Positions 2,796 through 42,301 of a stretch of 64,000 nucleotides of DNA are shown here, piece after piece. Made by a program: the position numbers and the translations under genes. How positions within the stretch are numbered: position 1 is the stretch's first letter; the number at the start of each line of letters is the position of its first letter. The stretch is from an uncultured Gammaproteobacteria bacterium (GTDB lineage Bacteria > Pseudomonadota > Gammaproteobacteria > HK1): assembly GCA_958295835.1 (NCBI GenBank), contig OY282378.1, forward strand, positions 947,001 through 1,011,000, read 5' to 3'. Below the pieces are notes generated by a model, which ran no database searches, was not told the origin of the DNA, and saw only the letters and a list, made by a program, of their open reading frames with translations.

Positions 2796-4583
2796 ATGGC
2801 AACGTATCAGGCACCGCTGAGGGACATGAAGTTCGTGCTGCACGAGCTCCTCGACGCCGAGCGGGAGTTCGCGGCGCTGCCCGGATTCGAGGAGGTGACC
2901 CGGGACCTGATCGACCCGGTGCTCGAAGAGGCGGCGAAGCTCTGCGAGAACGTGGTGTTCCCGCTCAACCGGACCGGGGACCAGGAAGGCTGCACCTTCG
3001 AGGATGGGACGGTGCGCACCCCGAGCGGGTTCCGCGACGCCTACCGCACGTTCGTCGAGGGCGGTTGGAACGGACTGTCGTGCAACCCGGAGTTCGGCGG
3101 GCAGGGACTGCCCGGCACCCTCAGCGTATTCGTCGAGGAGATGCTGCAATCGGCGAACCTGGCCTTCGCGCTCTATCCGGGCCTGACCCACGGCGCCTGC
3201 ATCGCGGTCGACAAGCACGCCGACGAAGATCTGCGCCGGCGCTACCTGCCCAAGCTCGTCGAGGGGACCTGGTCCGGCGTCATGTGCCTCACGGAGTCCC
3301 ACTGCGGCACCGACCTCGGGCTGCTGCGCACGCGCGCCGAGCCGGCCGGCGAGGGGCGCTACCGGGTCACCGGCACCAAGATCTTCATCACCGGCGGCGA
3401 GCAGGACCTGAGCGAGAACATCGTCCACCTCGTGCTCGCCCGGCTGCCGGACGCGCCCGCCGGGGTGAAGGGCATCAGCATGCTCCTCGTGCCGAAGTTC
3501 GTCGCCGGGGAGGACGGCTCGCTCGGGGAGCGCAACGCGGTCTCCTGCGGCTCGATCGAGCACAAGATGGGGATCCGGGGCGCGAGCACCTGCGTGATGA
3601 ACTACGACGGCGCGATCGGCTACCTGATCGGCGAGCCGCACCGCGGGCTTCAGGCGATGTTCTCGATGATGAACTACGAACGCATCATGGTCGGGCAGCA
3701 GGGGCTGTCGCTGGCCGAGGTCGCGTACCAGAACGCGGCCGACTACGCCCGCGAGCGGCTCCAGGGCCGCAGCCTCAAGGGTCCGGTCGCGCCGGACCTG
3801 CCCGCCGACCCGATCATCGTCCACCCCGACGTGAGGCGGATGCTGCTCGCCACCCGCGCGTACAACGAAGGCGCCCGCGCGCTGATCGCGTGGACCTCCC
3901 TGCAGATCGACCGCTCGACGCGCCACCCGGATCCGTCGGTCCGCGAGGCCGCCGCGGACGTCGTCGGGCTGATGATCCCGGTCATCAAGGCGTTCTTCAC
4001 CGACTACGGCTTCGAGGGCTGCCACCAGTGCCAGCAGGTGTTCGGCGGCCATGGCTACATCGCGGAGTGGGGCATGGAGCAGCTCGTGCGCGACGCCCGC
4101 ATCGCGCAGATCTACGAAGGGGCGAACGGGATCCACGCGCTCGACCTCGCCGGCCGGAAGCTCGCGATGAACGGCGGGCGGGCGATCCGGGCGTACATCG
4201 GGTCGGTGTCGGCGTTCATCGCCGAGCGTCGCAAGGTCCCTGGGCTCGATGAGTTCCTCGACCCGCTCGCGGCGGCGCTCGCGCGGCTCACCGAGGCCAC
4301 GCAGTGGTTGAACGAGGCGGCGAGGCGGGACCCGGACGAGATCGGCGCCGCGTCCTACGACTATCTCCGGCTGTTCGCGCTCGTCGCGTTCGGACGGATG
4401 TGGGCCGAGAGCGCGCAGATCGCGCTGGCGAAGCAGGAGGGGGACAACTCCGGCTTCTACCGCGCAAAGCTCGCCACCGCGAGGTTCTTCGTCCGGCGCC
4501 TCCTGCCCAACACCGCCTCGCTGCTCACGACGTTGCGCGCGGGCGCGGACACGGTGATGGCGCTGGAAGCCGAGGCGTTCTGA
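2796..4583 (+). CDS. Acyl-CoA dehydrogenase, DmdC-like family
   Basis: FAD-dependent alpha,beta-dehydrogenation of an acyl-CoA, feeding electrons to ETF and then to the adjacent ETF-QO. At 595 aa it is longer than classical short-chain enzymes: it has the N-terminal extension (YQAPLRDMKFVLHELLD) and extra C-terminal domain found in the DmdC/FadE-like group that includes 3-methylmercaptopropionyl-CoA dehydrogenase. The catalytic region IYEGANGIHALDLAGRKL and the FAD-contact block CLTESHCGTDLG are intact. A strong ribosome site, AAGGAGG (2780-2786), fixes the ATG at 2796. The true acyl chain (fatty, branched or methylthio) cannot be decided from sequence alone. Confidence 0.93.
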   Translation: MATYQAPLRDMKFVLHELLDAEREFAALPGFEEVTRDLIDPVLEEAAKLCENVVFPLNRTGDQEGCTFEDGTVRTPSGFRDAYRTFVEGGWNGLSCNPEFGGQGLPGTLSVFVEEMLQSANLAFALYPGLTHGACIAVDKHADEDLRRRYLPKLVEGTWSGVMCLTESHCGTDLGLLRTRAEPAGEGRYRVTGTKIFITGGEQDLSENIVHLVLARLPDAPAGVKGISMLLVPKFVAGEDGSLGERNAVSCGSIEHKMGIRGASTCVMNYDGAIGYLIGEPHRGLQAMFSMMNYERIMVGQQGLSLAEVAYQNAADYARERLQGRSLKGPVAPDLPADPIIVHPDVRRMLLATRAYNEGARALIAWTSLQIDRSTRHPDPSVREAAADVVGLMIPVIKAFFTDYGFEGCHQCQQVFGGHGYIAEWGMEQLVRDARIAQIYEGANGIHALDLAGRKLAMNGGRAIRAYIGSVSAFIAERRKVPGLDEFLDPLAAALARLTEATQWLNEAARRDPDEIGAASYDYLRLFALVAFGRMWAESAQIALAKQEGDNSGFYRAKLATARFFVRRLLPNTASLLTTLRAGADTVMALEAEAF

Positions 4584-4608
4584 GCCCGCGGGCCACCGGG
4601 CGGGACCG

Positions 4609-5535
4609 ATGTATCTCGTCAGCGGGGAAGCTCTCTTCGACTGCTTCGTCGATGACGGGCCGGACGCGGATCATGCGCACATCAACGCGATCATGGGCGG
4701 TGCGCCGTTCAACGTCGCGCGGGGGATCGTACGTCTCGGCGGCAAGGCAACGTTCTTCGGCGGTATTTCGACCGATCCGCTGGGCCGAAGGATTCGCCGC
4801 ATCCTCGACTCCGAGGGCGTCGGCACGGAATACGTGGTCGACGTGGCGGCGCCGACTCCGCTGAGTGTCGTCGCCACCGATCCGCGAGGGGAGCCGAGCT
4901 ACGTCTTCTACAATCAGGGAACCGCAGAGTGTGCGCTTACCCGTCGATCGAACCCCGCGCTTGATGAGCGTATCACCGGCCTTCACTTCGGATCGTACAC
5001 CCTGGTGGCGGAGCCGACCGCCGACGCCCTGGCGGCCCTGGCCTCGGCTCAGCGCGATCGGTTCATTTCCGTGGACCCGAACGTGCGCCCCGCGATCGTC
5101 CCGGACATGCGGGAGTGGCGACGGCGGGTGGAGGCGATGGTGGCGCTCGCCAACCTGGTCAAGGCCAGCCGAGAGGATCTCGAAACGTTGTATCCGTCGA
5201 AGGCAGTCGAGGGGATCGCGCGGCGTTGGCTGGATTCGGGCCCCGACCTCGTGGTCGTGACCGGCGGAGCGGCGCCGGTGCAGGCGTACCGCAGGGGCGA
5301 GCGGGTGGAGCATGTTCCCCCCGTGATCGCGGTGGTGGACATGGTTGGGGCCGGCGACACGTTCCAGGCCGCGCTGCTTGCAAGGATCGCGGAGCTCGGT
5401 CCCCCGGCGGACGTGGTCTCGGAGCTGCGCGGCTGCGCGCTCCGGGAGACCCTCGCATTCGCCGCCGCCGCCGCCGCGCTCACATGCCAGCGCCGGGGTG
5501 CCGGCGCTCCGGCGAGGAAGGAGTTGGTCGTCTGA
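4609..5535 (+). CDS. PfkB-family carbohydrate kinase (fructokinase-like)
   Basis: A ribokinase-fold sugar kinase of 308 aa that phosphorylates a monosaccharide with ATP. The N-terminal PfkB signature is seen as GGAPFNVARGIVRLGGKATF, and the C-terminal signature as VGAGDTFQAALLARI, in which the Asp is the catalytic base and the GAGD turn forms the anion hole. It begins 25 bases after the acyl-CoA dehydrogenase stop. Directly downstream is a decayed sugar ABC permease, so the kinase is probably a survivor of a sugar-uptake operon. Specificity for fructose, ribose or another sugar is not determined. Confidence 0.88.
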   Translation: MYLVSGEALFDCFVDDGPDADHAHINAIMGGAPFNVARGIVRLGGKATFFGGISTDPLGRRIRRILDSEGVGTEYVVDVAAPTPLSVVATDPRGEPSYVFYNQGTAECALTRRSNPALDERITGLHFGSYTLVAEPTADALAALASAQRDRFISVDPNVRPAIVPDMREWRRRVEAMVALANLVKASREDLETLYPSKAVEGIARRWLDSGPDLVVVTGGAAPVQAYRRGERVEHVPPVIAVVDMVGAGDTFQAALLARIAELGPPADVVSELRGCALRETLAFAAAAAALTCQRRGAGAPARKELVV

Positions 5536-30683: not shown

Positions 30684-30862
30684 GCCCGCGCGGCGCCATG
30701 CCGGAACGCGCCTGCGGCAGGCCGGATGACGAGCCACGCCGCCGGCCCGGGTCCGCCCCGCCCGAAACGGGCATCCGTTCACGAAACGTCTTCCACGTCC
30801 TGCCCGGGATTCCGGCCACTGTCCACCGATCAACTCAACGCAATCAACAAGGAAACCTCAGC

Positions 30863-32086
30863 ATGGTTCGTCTCAGTGATCTTCCGGATGTCTCACGCCG
30901 ATTCCTGATCGATTTCGACTGCCCGGTGATGGAAGGGCGCCCCTGGGCCGGCGGGCCACCGCTCTCGGAGCGCCGGATCGCCATCGTCACCACCGCCGGC
31001 CTGCAACGGCGCGGCGACCCGCCCTTTCATCTGGGCGCCGGCGGCTACCGGGTCATTCCCGGCGACACCGCGGGCGGCGACCTGGTCATGACCCATGCCT
31101 CGATCAATTTCGATCGCAGCGGATTCCAGGAAGACGTCAACGTCGCCTTCCCGGTCGATCGCCTGCGCGAGCTCGAAGCCGCCGGCACCATCGGCTCCGC
31201 CGGCGAGTACCACTATGCGTTCATGGGCGCTACCCACCCGGAGCAGATGGCGCCGGCGGCGGAGAAGGTCGCCGGATTGCTGAAGGACGACGGAGTGGAT
31301 TCCGTCCTGCTGGTCGGAGTCTGACCGGCCTGTACGCGCGCCGTGAGCGGGCTGGGCCACATTCTGGAGAACGCGGGGCTGTCCACGGTATCGATCAGCC
31401 TCGTTCGCGAGCACACCGAGCGCATCGTGCCGCCGCGCGCCCTCTGGGTGCCGTTCGAGTTCGGTCGTCCCCTTGGAGTGCCCGGGGACGCGGAATTTCA
31501 ACGCCGGGTTCTGGTCGCCGCCCTGAATCTCCTGGAGATCGAATCAGGACCGGTTCTTGCCGACTACCCCGAGGACGTGCCGGACCCGGCGCCCTCCGCG
31601 GACGGGGAGGGATGGGTCTGCCCCGTCCATCTCCGGCCGCCGGTCGCCGATGCCGACGACGAGTCGCTGGTTTCGGCGTTCCTCGCGGAGATTGCCGAGC
31701 TGCGGCCCTGGTACGACATCGGTCTTGAACGTCGCGGCCACACGACCTTCGGCGCGAGCGGTCTGGACATCACGGGATGCGGGCGCTTTCTCGGCGACTT
31801 TCTTGACGGCGACGGCCCCGCAACGGAGCGCTGGCCCGATCTGAGAGCGGGCGACATCCTCAAGATCGTGCTCATGGACGTCAAGACCTACTACCTGGAA
31901 GCGGCGCTGGCGCGGCCGGGCGGGGCATCGAGCCGGAACCTGGAGGACTGGTTCTGGGGTGATACCAACGCCGGGCAAGTGTTCCTGGCCTTGCAGCGGC
32001 GATGCGCGGCCAGCGACGACCCCTTCGTCGCCACGCTGGGGAGGCAGTTCATCGTTCCGCGCGCCCAGGCGCACCGGATCCGATGA
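30863..32086 (+). CDS. GrdB/PrdB-like selenoprotein, UGA (31322-31324) read as selenocysteine
   Basis: Two open stretches, 30863-31321 and 31325-32086, are in the same frame and separated only by TGA at codon 154. Read through, they give one 407-aa protein of the glycine/sarcosine/betaine reductase selenoprotein B family. Homology runs across the UGA: DDGVDSVLLVGV, then U-PACTRAVSGLGHILENAGL, which fits the family's LxPVU/CPxC(H/N) redox motif, followed by the downstream VPFEFGRPLGVPG block. The motif is therefore UPAC, a UxxC redox pair. AAGGAAA lies before the ATG at 30863. GrdB-type proteins reductively cleave C-N bonds; the substrate here is unknown. SDR upstream and cytosine deaminase downstream share the strand. 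selA, selB, selC and selD must be elsewhere in the genome. Confidence 0.88.
31325..31355 (+). promoter_or_regulatory. Candidate bacterial SECIS hairpin directly after the UGA
   Basis: The mRNA can fold with CCGGCC (31325-31330) pairing to GGCUGG (31350-31355), continuing through U-G, G-C and U-G pairs, one A-A mismatch, then C-G, G-U and C-G, closing a 5-base loop GCGCC whose first base is G. A stem starting right after the UGA with G early in the loop fits bacterial SECIS elements, although the loop is a little closer to the UGA (13 bases) than the usual 16-37. Confidence 0.5.
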
Positions 32087-35804: not shown

Positions 35805-37226
35805 ATGCCCTTCAAGACCATCGAGATCGACTTCGGCGCCGAGCGCGTGCCCATCGACGTGCCGGAGAGCGCGGTGGTCGCGGAGTTCCGGGATCCCGAG
35901 CCGCTCGCATCGCCGGCCGATGCGCTCGCCGCCGCACTCGCCAATCCCCACGGCGCCCCGCCGCTGGCCGAGCTCGCGAAGCCGGGCATGAAGGTCGCGA
36001 TCGGCTTCGACGATCCCACCCGGCCGCCGCGTCCCTGGCACGTGATCCTGCCCGCGGTGGTCGATCTGCTGCTCGCGCGTGGCGTCTCCCGGGACGACAT
36101 CGTGTTCATCTGCGCGAACGGCAATCACAAGAAATGGAGCGAGTCGGAGCTGCGGGCCTTCGTCGGCGAGGAGATCTTCGCCGGCTTCCGGCCGGGCGGG
36201 CAGATCGTCAACCACGACTGCCTCGACGAATCGGGGCTCGAATACCTGGGCGAGACCCCGAGCGGCTGCGTGGTCGAGCACAACCGCCGCTTCGTCGAAG
36301 CCGACCTGATGATCTACGCCGGGCAGGTCATGGCCCACACCTGGGGCGGCTATACCGGCACCGGCGCGGTCATCGGGATGGCCTCGACCCGCAGCATCCT
36401 GTCCCACCACAACCACGGCGTCGTGAACCATCCGCAAACCGCGACCGGCGACCACCGGCGCATGTACTTCCGCAAGCTGAAAGCGGAGATCAACGCCCAT
36501 ATCGAGCAGGCCACGGGAAAGCGGATTTTCTACATCAACTGGGTCGGGGACAGCGGCGGGCGGATGGCGGGGATCTTCGCCGGGTACTCCCCCGAGGTGG
36601 AGCCTCCCGCCTGGGAGGCCGCCGACCGATTCAGTGTGATCGAAGTCCCGCAGGCCGACATACTGGTCATCGGGCTCTCCGACCGCTTCGCCTACGGCAG
36701 CGCGGACAACCCCCTCGTCGCGGCCATCGGCGTGGGCTATCCCCCGCGCGTATGGCTGGGCGACCACGTGCTGCGCCGCGGCGGGGTGGTGATCGGGATG
36801 ACCCCTTCGTCGGGGGAGATCGACGCCGGGACATACCCTTCGTATCAGGAGGTCATCGACCTGTACGCCCGCCACCACGAGATCCGCGAGCTGGCCGAAC
36901 ACCAGGACGCCATCGCGTCGCGGCCGGACTATCTCGGACGCTACGCGAAGGGCGGCGCCTACCACCCCATCCACCCCTTCTGGCTGCTGTATGCGTGCGA
37001 CTACGTCCTGAGCCGGGCGGGCGCGGTGTTCATGGCCGGCGTCCGCAACCCCGGCGCGTTCAGAAAGCTCGGCATGCGCCCGGTCAAGTCCTTTGCCGAC
37101 GCCTGGACGCGAGCCGAGCCGATCGTCGGCCCGGACCCGGTGACGGTGGTCGCGCCTACGTACTGGAGCAGGCGCATCTTCAAGTTCGCGGTCCGGGGCC
37201 CGGGAGTGGGTTTTGGGGACGGTTGA
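35805..37226 (+). CDS. LarA-family (nickel-pincer racemase) homologue lacking the cofactor-attaching Lys
   Basis: A 473-aa LarA/DUF2088 protein. LarA enzymes racemise or epimerise 2-hydroxy acids by hydride transfer using a nickel-pincer nucleotide. Conserved elements are FDDPTRPPRP (equivalent to the Asp/Arg pair near residues 72-75 of Lactobacillus LarA), CANGNHKKW (His108), and MAHTWGGYTGTGAVIGMAS then SHHNHG. Counting from the His in MAHTW (His174), the residue at +10, where LarA has Lys184, is Ala; the His at +26 (His200) is kept. Cofactor binding would then be non-covalent. It follows a TRAP permease and is probably co-transcribed with it. larB, larC and larE are not in the window. Confidence 0.85.
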   Translation: MPFKTIEIDFGAERVPIDVPESAVVAEFRDPEPLASPADALAAALANPHGAPPLAELAKPGMKVAIGFDDPTRPPRPWHVILPAVVDLLLARGVSRDDIVFICANGNHKKWSESELRAFVGEEIFAGFRPGGQIVNHDCLDESGLEYLGETPSGCVVEHNRRFVEADLMIYAGQVMAHTWGGYTGTGAVIGMASTRSILSHHNHGVVNHPQTATGDHRRMYFRKLKAEINAHIEQATGKRIFYINWVGDSGGRMAGIFAGYSPEVEPPAWEAADRFSVIEVPQADILVIGLSDRFAYGSADNPLVAAIGVGYPPRVWLGDHVLRRGGVVIGMTPSSGEIDAGTYPSYQEVIDLYARHHEIRELAEHQDAIASRPDYLGRYAKGGAYHPIHPFWLLYACDYVLSRAGAVFMAGVRNPGAFRKLGMRPVKSFADAWTRAEPIVGPDPVTVVAPTYWSRRIFKFAVRGPGVGFGDG

Positions 37227-37353
37227 CGACGGATCTCGCCCAGGATGCGAGCGGCATCGTCGCCGGTCACTCGCCCTCGGACGAGAATGCTGAACCCTGA
37301 CACGTACATTGTCCTTGATTGAAGTTCCGGATTCCCGGGGAGCTTCGCCGCTG

Positions 37354-39126
37354 ATGGACGACACCGGGCGCCTTCCGCCCCGCTGCCTCTCGCTGGATCT
37401 CGAAATCGGCCGCCGGGACGGCCGCATCCACGCCTTCGCCGCGGTGCGTGCGGAGACCGAAGAGGCCCTCACCTTTCACGGCGACGCGTTGGGCCTGGCG
37501 CTGGCGAGGCTGGACGCTTTCGCCGGCGGCGCGGACTGCCTGTTGGGCCACAACCTGATCAAGTTCGATCTGCCACATCTGCGCGCGGTGAACCCCGATC
37601 TCCGGCTCTTGCGGCTTCCCGCGGTGGATACGCTGTGGCTCAACCCCTTGGCCTTCCCCCGCAACCCCTATCACCATCTGGTCAAGCATTACCAGGACGG
37701 GCAGCTCAAACGCGGGCGGGTGAATGACCCGGAGCTGGACGCCCGACTCGTGCTGGAGGTTTTCGGCGATCAGCAAGAGAGGTTGAAGGCGTTGCGCGAC
37801 GAGGCCCCCGACCTGCTGGCGGCCTGGCATTGGCTGGCCACGACGGATCGTGCCGGCGCGGGATTCGATGCATTCTTCGCCGCCGTCCGCGGCGCGCCGC
37901 GGCCCTCCGGCGCCCAGGCGCATGCGGCGATCCGCGAGCGGCTCGCGGGTGCGGCCTGCGAGAACCATTGCCGCGAAATCCTGGCCGATCCGGCACGGCA
38001 TGGCTGGGCACTGGCCTACGCCCTGGCCTGGCTGTCGGTGGCCGGGGGCAACTCGGTGATGCCGCCCTGGGTACGGCACCAGTTCCCCGAAGCCGGCGTG
38101 CTGGTGCGCCGGTTGCGGGATACCGCCTGCAACGATCCCGCCTGTGGCTGGTGCCGGGAGCGGCACGACGCACGCAAGGAGCTCGCGCGCTGGTTCGGCT
38201 TCGGCGACTTCCGCCCGGAGCCGATGGGCGGCGACGGCCGGCCCATGCAGCGTTCCATCGTCGAGGCGGCGATGGCCGGGGAGAGCGTGCTCGGCATCCT
38301 GCCCACGGGCACCGGCAAGTCGCTGTGCTACCAGATCCCGGCCCTGTCCCGTTACGACAAGACCGGCGCCCTGACCGTGGTGATCTCGCCTCTGGTGGCG
38401 CTCATGGCGGATCAGGTGGCGGGCCTCGAAAGGCGCGGCATCGGCTCCTGCGTGACCGTCAACGGATTGCTGTCCATGCCCGAACGCAAGGAGGCGCTGG
38501 ACCGGGTGCGCCTGGGCGACGCGGGCATCCTCATCGTCGCGCCGGAGCAGCTCCGCAGCCTGGCCGTGCGCCGGGCCCTGGAGCAGCGCGAGATCGGCGC
38601 CTGGGTGCTGGACGAGGCGCATTGCCTCTCGCGCTGGAGCCACGACTTCCGGCCCGACTACCGTTACGTGGCACGCTTCATTAAAGAAAGGGCCGCGGAT
38701 GCGCAGGTGCTGTGTCTGACCGCCACCGCCAAGCCCGACGTGAAGGAGGACATCCGCGCCCACTTCCGCGACCGGCTCGACATCGATCTCAGGGTCTTCG
38801 ACGGCGGCGCCAGCCGCACCAACCTGGAGTTCGTCGTGGTGCGGACCACTCCGGGCGAGAAGTTCGCACACCTCCACCAGATCCTGGCGGCCGACCTGCC
38901 TCCGGAAACGCCGGGCGGCGCCATCGTCTACTGCGCGACGCGTCGGCGAAGCGAGGACGTTGCCCAATTCCTGCGCGAGAAGGACATCGCCGCGGACCAC
39001 TTCCATGCCGGCCTGTCGCCGGAGATCAAGAAGACCGTCCAGCAGCGCTTCATCGAAGGCGGCTCGCGGGTGATCGCCGCTACCAACGCCTTCGGCATAG
39101 GCATCGACAAGCCGGACGTGCGGCTG
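37354..39126 (+). pseudogene. 5' part of a split exonuclease-RecQ-UvrD helicase gene
   Basis: The first about 200 residues form a DnaQ-like DEDD exonuclease (LSLDLEIG, LLGHNLIKFDLPHL, NDPELDARL). A RecQ helicase follows with Walker A GILPTGTGKSLCYQ, motif Ia ISPLVALMADQ, DEAH box WVLDEAHCLSRW, motif III LCLTATAK, motif IV IVYCATRR and motif V ATNAFGIGIDKPDVRL. At about 39126 the match ends: the expected HxDxPxSxExYxQExGRAGRDG motif VI is absent and unrelated sequence runs on to a stop at 39336. The 3' part, a UvrD-like helicase, reappears at 42846. The ATG at 37354 (GGGGAG upstream) is preferred over a TTG at 37309. Without motif VI the RecQ ATPase is expected to be dead. Confidence 0.8.
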
Positions 39127-39161
39127 CATGGAGGCTCCATCGACGAATGCCAGGTTGGTGA

Positions 39162-39192
39162 CGTGCCGATGGCACGGACGGCGGTCGGCAGG
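39162..39192 (+). repeat. Left copy of a 31-bp exact direct repeat bounding a cassette
   Basis: The 31 bases beginning CGTGCCGATGGCACGGACGG recur exactly at 40729-40759, same orientation. The left copy lies 36 bases after the point where the RecQ homology ends. The block itself contains the palindrome GTGCCGATGGCAC. Confidence 0.85.
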
Positions 39193-39246
39193 GTATATTG
39201 GATGCCGGTGCCCCAGGGTCACCGGCAGTCGATGGAGGGCAGCACG

Positions 39247-39336
39247 ATGAAACGGTTGATGTTGGGCATTATCCTCGCCGCGGGGGGGCTCGCGATGCCG
39301 GTGCAGGCACCCGACCCCAAGGCCGCAGCCTTTTAG
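39247..39336 (+). CDS. Signal-peptide mini-ORF (29 aa), truncated secreted protein
   Basis: The ORF MKRLMLGIILAAGGLAMPVQA followed by PDPKAAAF has a textbook signal peptide with a basic start, a hydrophobic core and cleavage after VQA, then stops after eight residues. GGAGGG lies 7 bases before the ATG. It is in the same frame as the helicase remnant, so it shares its stop. Either a secreted protein lost its mature part, or a very short peptide is exported. There is no database evidence available to choose. Confidence 0.4.
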   Translation: MKRLMLGIILAAGGLAMPVQAPDPKAAAF

Positions 39337-39435: not shown

Positions 39436-39717
39436 ATGGAAACGCCGAATGAAATGCGAATGAAGGTCACGCACAAGGCATCCACGGACGCCGACTTCCG
39501 CGCCCGGCTGGTCAGCGACCCGAAGGCAGCCATCGGCGCAGAGCTCGGCGTCAGCCTGCCGGCAGGACTGACCGTCGAGGTCCACGAGGAGAGCGCCGAG
39601 ACGGCGCATCTCGTCCTTCCTCCCCCCAGCAAGTTGAGCGAGAGCGACTTGCACGCGGTCGCAGGAGGGTTCTTTGGCTCCAGTATGGGGCAGGCAAACA
39701 GCCTCTTGAACTGGTAA
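39436..39717 (+). CDS. NHLP-type RiPP precursor peptide (orphan)
   Basis: A 93-aa peptide resembling nitrile-hydratase-like leader peptides (NHLP family of ribosomal natural-product precursors). The leader is nitrile hydratase alpha-like: DADFRARLVSDPKAAIGAEL, then GVSLPAGLTVEVHEES and AHLVLPPPSKLSESDLHAV. It ends in the double-glycine cleavage site AVAGG. The core would be FFGSSMGQANSLLNW, 15 residues, with three Ser and no Cys or Thr. AGGAGAG lies before the ATG at 39436. A strong terminator hairpin follows. No LanM, YcaO, radical SAM or peptidase-containing ABC transporter gene is in the window, so its maturation enzymes are elsewhere or lost. Confidence 0.8.
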   Translation: METPNEMRMKVTHKASTDADFRARLVSDPKAAIGAELGVSLPAGLTVEVHEESAETAHLVLPPPSKLSESDLHAVAGGFFGSSMGQANSLLNW

Positions 39718-40785: not shown

Positions 40786-41922
40786 TCAAAGCCCGTGAAG
40801 CTCACTGCAGCGTTGCCGATGGTGTTCTAGAAGCTTCACCATGACCGCATGAACATCGCTACGCGGGCCGCCGTCACGGTCATAGCTGGCGTAATAGGCA
40901 ACGACCAATACATCAACCGCCTGTTGATCGGCGGCTTCATAGGCAGCTTTCGCCTGTTGCTTGGCGGCTTCGTAGGCAGCACGGGCATCTCGCGTGGCGG
41001 CGTCGCGGGCATCGTCCGCCTGTTGCCGGGCGGGTTTGTAGGCAGCATCCGCCTGTTGCTTAGCGGCTTCGTAGGCATCTTTCGCCTGTCGAAGAGCGGC
41101 CTTTTTCGCCTGTTGCGCGGCGTCGCGGGCATCGTCCGCCTGTTGCAGGGCGGCTTCGTAGGCTTCTCCCGCCTGTCGATAGGCGGCTTCGTAGGCATCT
41201 TTCGCCTGTCGAAGAGCGGCCTTTTTCGCCTGTTGCGCGGCGTCGCGGGCATCTCTCGCCTGTTGCAGGGCGGCTTTGTAGGCATCGTTCGCCTGTTTCT
41301 CTGCGGCACGGAAGGCAGCTTGGGCATCTCCCGCCGTTTGCTTGGCGGCGGTGCTGGCTTCTCTCGCCTGTTGCCGGGCGGCTTCGTAGACAGCACGGGC
41401 ATCTCGCGTGGTGGCGTCGCGGGCATCTCTCGCCTGTTTCTTTGCGGCAAGGAAGGCAGCACGGGGATCTCCCGCCGTTTGCTTGGCGGCGGCGGTGCTG
41501 GCTTCTCTCGCCTGTTGCGTGGCGGCTTCGTGGGCAGCACGGGCATCTCGCAGGGCGGCTTCGTAGGCATCTTGCGCCTGTTTCTTGGCGGCGTCGAAGG
41601 CATCATGCGCCCGTGCCCAGGCGGCTCGGTCATCCGCCTTTGCGGCGGTGCTGGCTTCTCTCGCCTGTTGCAGGGCGGCTTCGTAGGCAGCTTCCACCGG
41701 TCGCAGGGCGGCATAGTAGGCATCGTTCGCCTGTTGCTCGGCGGCGGAGCGGGCATCTTTCGCCTGTTGCAGGGCGGCTTCGTAGACAGCATCAGCCTCC
41801 GCGTATCCCGCGCAGGCTTCAATACTCGGGTTGTTGTTGTCCGCTTGGAGTGCACCCGACCCCGCCAGCGCCGCCAACAACACGCACCACAACACCCGTA
41901 CTCTCGTTGACTTCGGCTTCAT
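40786..41922 (-). CDS. Exported Ala-rich coiled-coil repeat protein
   Basis: A 378-aa protein with a signal peptide (MKPKSTRVRVLWCVLLAALAG, cleavage near LQA) and about 300 residues of degenerate repeats of the type YEAALQQAKDARDAA, rich in Ala, Gln, Arg, Lys and Asp, with Tyr spaced regularly. A long single helix or coiled coil in the periplasm or cell surface is expected. The final about 40 residues (LVVAYYASYDRDGG onward) are non-repetitive. GAGGAA precedes the ATG at 41922. Repeats of about 20 bases containing TCAAAGCCCGTG flank it (40778-40796 and 41956-41974). No function is assigned; similar lengths are found in TolA-like or stalk-forming helices. Confidence 0.7.
   Translation of the reverse strand: MKPKSTRVRVLWCVLLAALAGSGALQADNNNPSIEACAGYAEADAVYEAALQQAKDARSAAEQQANDAYYAALRPVEAAYEAALQQAREASTAAKADDRAAWARAHDAFDAAKKQAQDAYEAALRDARAAHEAATQQAREASTAAAKQTAGDPRAAFLAAKKQARDARDATTRDARAVYEAARQQAREASTAAKQTAGDAQAAFRAAEKQANDAYKAALQQARDARDAAQQAKKAALRQAKDAYEAAYRQAGEAYEAALQQADDARDAAQQAKKAALRQAKDAYEAAKQQADAAYKPARQQADDARDAATRDARAAYEAAKQQAKAAYEAADQQAVDVLVVAYYASYDRDGGPRSDVHAVMVKLLEHHRQRCSELHGL
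41063..41253. repeat. 120-base-period DNA repeat inside the Ala-rich gene
   Basis: The 71 bases at 41063-41133 are identical to 41183-41253, exactly 120 bases (40 codons) apart, and the segment between is similar. This is recent in-frame tandem expansion, so the protein length is likely variable between strains. Confidence 0.85.
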
Positions 41923-42301
41923 CGTTTCCTCCCCGTCAGTGTGTCGGCCCACCGCCGACAGGGTCAAAGCCCGTGCAGCATACAACGGCAGCGTTCACGG
42001 CATGAGAGCGGTATCGGCCTCGATGGTGCGCCAGTCCGGCGGTACGTCCCAGGTCATTCAGCCGGACGTGGTAGAGCACTGCGAACCGGCATCGACCTCG
42101 GCGCGGGTTGAGTAACGTCCGCGCGAAGCAGCCTGTACGCCACGGACGGGCGGAACCACGGGGCGCGCTCAATGCCGAGCAGCGACCACGGGGCACCCGT
42201 GGCGCGTCAGAGCACGGTTCGCCGGCAGGCTGGCGCGTTCCCGCCGAACCCGGTTACCCTGCCGACCGCACGCCGACAGCGGAACTGCCCAGGACGGTGA
42301 C
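41923..42301. other. 379-base gap between the Ala-rich gene and DUF1640
   Basis: Holds the right copy of the TCAAAGCCCGTG repeat (41956-41974) and, from about 42200, the duplicated upstream block of DUF1640 genes. The leftward strand at the start is the likely promoter region of the Ala-rich gene. I see no convincing gene in 41980-42200. Confidence 0.5.

Follow-up and report, generated by a model that had tools for sequence, protein, structure and literature searches.

A predicted two-domain, PrdB-like selenoprotein in an uncultured gammaproteobacterium

Introduction

PrdB-like marine selenoproteins have been known since 2005, when 42 selenocysteine (Sec)-containing 'PrdB' genes were described from sea-water bacteria (PMC1088965). 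The 2008 GOS survey, with 235 Sec and 110 Cys PrdB-like genes (PMC2398784), places them among the commonest selenoproteins of sea water, yet they are named for an anaerobic clostridial enzyme. These marine proteins, annotated as 'proline reductase PrdB', are of PF07355 type, carry a UxxC motif and are Sec-rich in sea-water bacteria. The available text of a 2026 review gives only GrdB and PrdB for the superfamily (PMC13188914). PrdB itself (TIGR04483) works with PrdA and has its Sec (U151 in the Peptoclostridium protein) in the motif U-G-T-C-H-R, GrdB (PF07355, TIGR01918) has U-x-x-C-x-x-C according to the same review text, and a group of short proteins (~300 aa) annotated as 'glycine/sarcosine/betaine reductase selenoprotein B family protein' has U/C-P-V-C-H-Q, commonly with Cys.

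Here we describe a gene from an uncultured gammaproteobacterium that is related to all of these. The window, the whole stretch of 64,000 nucleotides that was analysed, lies within a single 5.73 Mb contig of the source genome (G000, 97% complete). Relatives that combine the PrdB-like domain with a C-terminal helical domain are called long forms below, and those without the helical domain short forms.

Results

The gene lies on the forward strand in a single frame, 30863-32083, whose sole interruption is a TGA at 31322-31324 (codon 154). A Shine-Dalgarno-like AAGGAAA, read from the sequence, stands 7 nt upstream of the ATG at 30863 (30849-30855, + strand), and the terminator is TGA 32084-32086. 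With the internal TGA translated as Sec, as its conservation in homologues suggests, the product has 407 residues and U at position 154 in V-U-P-A-C-T, the wider context being LLVGV-U-P-A-C-T-R-A-V. The mechanical ORF list cuts the gene at this codon and begins a second ORF at GTG 31343, the very split into two false genes that had been foreseen in an initial annotation, where the locus was proposed to be a hidden selenoprotein with an in-frame UGA at codon 154. The proposal holds: the TGA is kept in homologues, selA, selB, selC and selD are present and a SECIS element is supported, and together with the translation, the profile match and dN/dS these point almost beyond doubt to a real single cistron in which UGA 154 is read as Sec.

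The selenocysteine machinery, on whose presence that proposal depended, was located in the source genome. selA (C1:1625512-1626852) is followed directly by selB (1626888-1628933; 407 bits in all) and, 45 nt past selB, by selC (start at 1628979), the three being consecutive; selD is at 735566-736495. Two further PrdB-like selenoprotein genes, both with an in-frame TGA, are found in the same genome: a long paralogue with 48% identity to the window gene (L037, G000:C1:1720209-1721372) and a short Sec copy (L042, G000:C1:3149187-3149774).

TGA occupies the codon 154 position in 80 of 80 homologous long-form loci from at least six phyla, these being the best 80 of 494 matches in a genome-collection scan and not an unbiased census. 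The patterns used for retrieval excluded the Sec position, and for L072 and L119 the motif was inspected by eye. By their MAG labels as deposited, the loci belong to Pseudomonadota, Thermodesulfobacteriota, Chloroflexota, Nitrospinota, Gemmatimonadota, Verrucomicrobiota and further groups. A hand-counted census of one order gave TGA in 52 of the 53 long-form genes that span the Sec position, with up to four long-form copies per genome, some of them in tandem. The lone exception (G601), apparently stop-free, has CGA (Arg) and not Cys, which may reflect a sequence error or the decay of this copy. Because the codon is kept throughout the 80 loci and in 52 of the 53 census genes, a chance TGA is excluded. 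The long form with TGA was found at 46-87% identity to the window gene among 185 relatives. Between the window gene and its 87%-identical orthologue, dN/dS is 0.09 before the TGA and 0.13 after it; purifying selection acts on both sides.

Beginning ~10 nt past the TGA, the window RNA folds into a hairpin (31332-31356, + strand; stem core 31336-31352) with an apical GUG loop at 31343-31345. Rfam gave no match at the hairpin, and since the single-sequence fold of the window RNA falls short of significance (z -1.0 to -1.6), its assignment as a bacterial SECIS element rests on comparative data. Counting the U of UGA as 1, the consensus stem of the homologues joins positions 15-21 to 25-31 and is capped by a G-U-N loop. 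Third-base entropy among the 84 four-fold columns of the gene is lowest at codons 158, 159, 160 and 162, frozen wobble sites that all lie in the stem, and the third base of codon 161, which sits in the loop, is variable. Pair 16/30 changes from C-G to U-A in 12 distinct sequences and to G-C in one. Pairing is kept there in 75 of 78 sequences against 63.9 expected, a value reached in 0 of 5000 shuffles; these shuffles ignore the kinship of the sequences, although the U-A type occurs in Betaproteobacteria, Chloroflexota and an alphaproteobacterium. This covariation is not explained by protein constraint, because position 30 is the third base of a codon. The element stands directly 3' of the TGA with a conserved G/U in the apical loop, as expected of a bacterial selenoprotein gene.

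The N-terminal domain (residues 33-228; 30959-31546, + strand), delimited by profile match, predicted model and structure comparison, contains U154-P-A-C157. TIGR04483 (PrdB) matches residues 33-225 with E 2e-29 in an alignment that crosses the TGA, at a score of 102.7 against an equivalog cut-off of 300, and TIGR01918 aligns over 34-227 with a score of 52.6, below its cut-off of 65.45. A search of the joined protein, with U at 154, against PF07355 exceeded the cut-off (34.7 bits versus 22) with the Sec/Cys column aligned, but the match is confined to profile positions 223-345, the C-terminal part of the family, whereas a full-length GrdB (~430 aa) would match from the start. That similarity to the selenoprotein B superfamily continues on both sides of a U-P-A-C redox motif at the UGA had been claimed beforehand and is confirmed by these alignments, which cross residue 154. 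AlphaFold2 gave a confident two-domain model (mean pLDDT 92.9), in which the predicted N-terminal domain is Rossmann-type and the Sec stands at the start of helix 155-170; H78, D84, D91, N93 and R182 are conserved polar residues of this domain.

Residues 33-228 cover nearly the whole of PrdB, with the Sec at an equivalent position and a shared U-x-x-C. Identity to PrdB is ~30-35%, far under the family cut-off, the long form has U-P-x-C-T-R where PrdB has U-G-T-C-H-R, and PrdB is without the 160-residue helical domain. Compared with GrdB, the window protein is without the N-terminal half and the third Cys of the motif. The short proteins share the N-terminal domain and the Sec/Cys position but not the helical domain, and fall into a separate tree group. 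Judged by these comparisons, the protein is a PrdB-like domain joined to a C-terminal helical domain of ~160 residues, and not GrdB. The label 'GrdB/PrdB-like' of the initial annotation is therefore right about PrdB-like membership of the superfamily; the GrdB part falls away, and the protein carries an extra, undescribed C-terminal domain.

In a quick tree a branch supported at 100 set all 69 long forms apart from the short forms, the position of PrdB being unsure on its long branch, and the long forms appear to be one clade. Cys was not seen at the Sec position in any long form examined (best 80 of 494 loci; 53 genes of one order), so that the earlier statement that this position is Sec or Cys in homologues describes the short relatives but not the long form. 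NCBIfam has no model specific to the 67 members compared, whose matches were the known PrdB/GrdB models. The passages compared from the two marine papers (PMC1088965, PMC2398784) describe neither a long form nor a helical domain or a Sec-only clade, and PrdB is not among the domain fusions given in the available text of the Sargasso Sea and GOS surveys. The 'PrdB' sets of these surveys may well include the long form. One Cys-type short homologue, on a Roseomonas plasmid, adjoins the protein adenylyltransferase SelO (L162, 5863-8248).

The C-terminal domain (residues 250-407; 31610-32083, + strand), recognised from conservation, predicted models and database searches, starts with a near-invariant Cys253-Pro254 and comprises seven helices from 266 to 405 in the predicted model; modelled alone it reached a pLDDT of 93.2. 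C253, E276, W283, R293 (His in the window protein), D339, Y344, E346, P352-G353 and W363 are near-invariant. The domain has no match in Pfam or NCBIfam, and no solved structure in the PDB was matched by sequence. Comparison of the domain alone with the PDB by Foldseek and VIA-align gave no credible match (E at least 3.8, best Z 4.2), and the whole model found no trustworthy one, its best Z of 7.7 being to generic Rossmann/binding-protein folds. Missing structural matches do not prove a new fold. Among the 185 relatives the helical domain occurs solely within the long form or as a remnant in the same-genus genome G003. This remnant (L029, G003:C1:3136921-3137532) is a 5'-truncated long-form gene without everything before residue ~190, the Sec half included, and abuts an opposite-strand dehydrogenase gene. 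Homologues in which the second half is an independent protein with its own start, named beforehand as evidence that would count against a selenoprotein, were not seen, the truncated remnant being the sole lone copy.

The TRAP, SDR, deaminase and UPRT neighbours of the gene are syntenic only with the same-genus genome G002, the source of the 87%-identical orthologue, and not with the 80 wider homologues. The setting with an SDR, a TRAP importer and a cytosine deaminase had been thought informative; as a setting confined to the genus it reveals little of the substrate, and inference of the substrate from these neighbours was rejected. Beside a few homologues GMC oxidoreductase genes reappear; the family being large, they were not used as a clue. 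At one long-form locus (L052) a large protein that begins like an FAD oxidoreductase and is fused to SelD (3031-5247) converges on the long-form gene, with 8 bp between the two; the GOS text describes Ndh-SelD fusions (PMC2398784). Elsewhere in the window are an NHLP-leader RiPP precursor (39436-39717, + strand; TIGR03793, 70.7 bits versus 50.9), a RecQ-type helicase (37309-39336, + strand) that looks truncated, its match ending at ~position 295 of 591 and the frame continuing into unrelated sequence, a LarA-like protein (35805-37226, + strand) far under the cut-offs of all nickel-pincer racemase families, and a highly repetitive Ala/Gln/Asp-rich ORF with repeated QQARDA-type units (40786-41985, - strand).

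Discussion

On balance we favour a model in which a Sec-encoding cistron yields an enzyme with PrdB-type selenolate chemistry but without a pyruvoyl partner, the helical domain completing the pocket. The hairpin close behind UGA 154 would direct SelB and tRNA-Sec to read this codon as Sec, and within the PrdB-type fold the Sec of the U-x-x-C motif would stand at the N-terminus of a helix. The selenolate may attack or reduce a small substrate held between the PrdB-like and helical domains, Cys157 (possibly also Cys253) would form a Se-S bond that resolves the oxidised selenium, and the selenoenzyme could be regenerated by a dithiol of the cell, e.g. thioredoxin. As the search for a PrdA/GrdE pyruvoyl subunit came back empty, activation of the substrate probably takes another route, the helical domain most likely standing in for the missing partner to complete the substrate pocket. 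The roles suggested for Cys157, Cys253 and the helical domain draw on conservation and on analogy with GrdB/PrdB; no conserved neighbour in the 80 loci indicates a substrate or electron donor.

An unlikely alternative is that the protein belongs to selenium metabolism, for example by handling selenide or selenol on its way to SelD. In ~10 of the 80 loci (L044, L047, L052, L054, L057, L071, L074, L080, L082 and L090) the retrieved flanks contain sel genes, selD is directly upstream (~20-180 nt) in six of them on several tree branches (L044, L047, L057, L071, L074 and L090), and no Cys version of the long form was encountered. However, selenoprotein genes of unrelated function, such as that for formate dehydrogenase, can also adjoin sel genes, the window copy is far from its own, and the presence of several long-form copies in one genome suits a catabolic or stress enzyme better than a single housekeeping step.

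We also think it quite unlikely that the protein is a redox defence enzyme of peroxide/thiol type with a PrdB fold. A U-x-x-C motif where a helix begins does resemble those of thiol oxidoreductases, and the gene is carried by sea-water lineages such as Rhodospirillaceae and SAR202, but the predicted Rossmann-type fold with its conserved polar residues is unlike peroxiredoxin or thioredoxin.

That the protein is a genuine subunit of D-proline or glycine/betaine/sarcosine reductase, working with a pyruvoyl partner encoded at a distance, is improbable. PrdB is the best curated family, and residues 33-228 share 30-35% identity with the plasmid PrdB of Peptoclostridium and with others; against this stand the score, about a third of the PrdB cut-off, and the extra helical domain. 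The pyruvoyl PrdA/GrdE family PF09338, the only Pfam family tested for a partner, is absent from the source genome, was over the cut-off in 3 of 12 other long-form genomes tested and in none of the remaining nine, and gave three matches in the Peptoclostridium record used as a positive control (W01). No such partner having been found in the genome, it is unlikely that the reaction is D-proline or glycine reduction or that the window protein is either reductase.

Two separate genes or a pseudogene, with a PrdB-like fragment ending at the TGA and an independent protein from GTG 31343, would give exactly the two ORFs of the mechanical caller and might be read into the lone C-terminal half in G003, but this is effectively refuted by the TGA in 80 of 80 loci, with hairpin and purifying selection also conserved, by the confinement of the helical domain to long forms and that truncated remnant, and by GTG 31343 itself, which is codon 161 (V161) and is GTC, GTT or GTA in about half of the homologues, so that the second half has no conserved start.

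Carried from this selenoprotein to its relatives, the favoured model becomes tentative. The long forms may constitute a Sec-only family, spread over several phyla and multi-copy in some marine Alphaproteobacteria, that performs partner-free PrdB-type selenolate chemistry with the helical domain binding the substrate.

What is new beside the PrdB-like proteins already known from the sea is a two-domain, almost exclusively Sec branch that is widespread and unnamed. Ordinary gene calling will cut genes of this type in two. With its near-invariable Sec, apparently partner-free and having no NCBIfam equivalog, the branch is a target for asking why these bacteria maintain selenocysteine.
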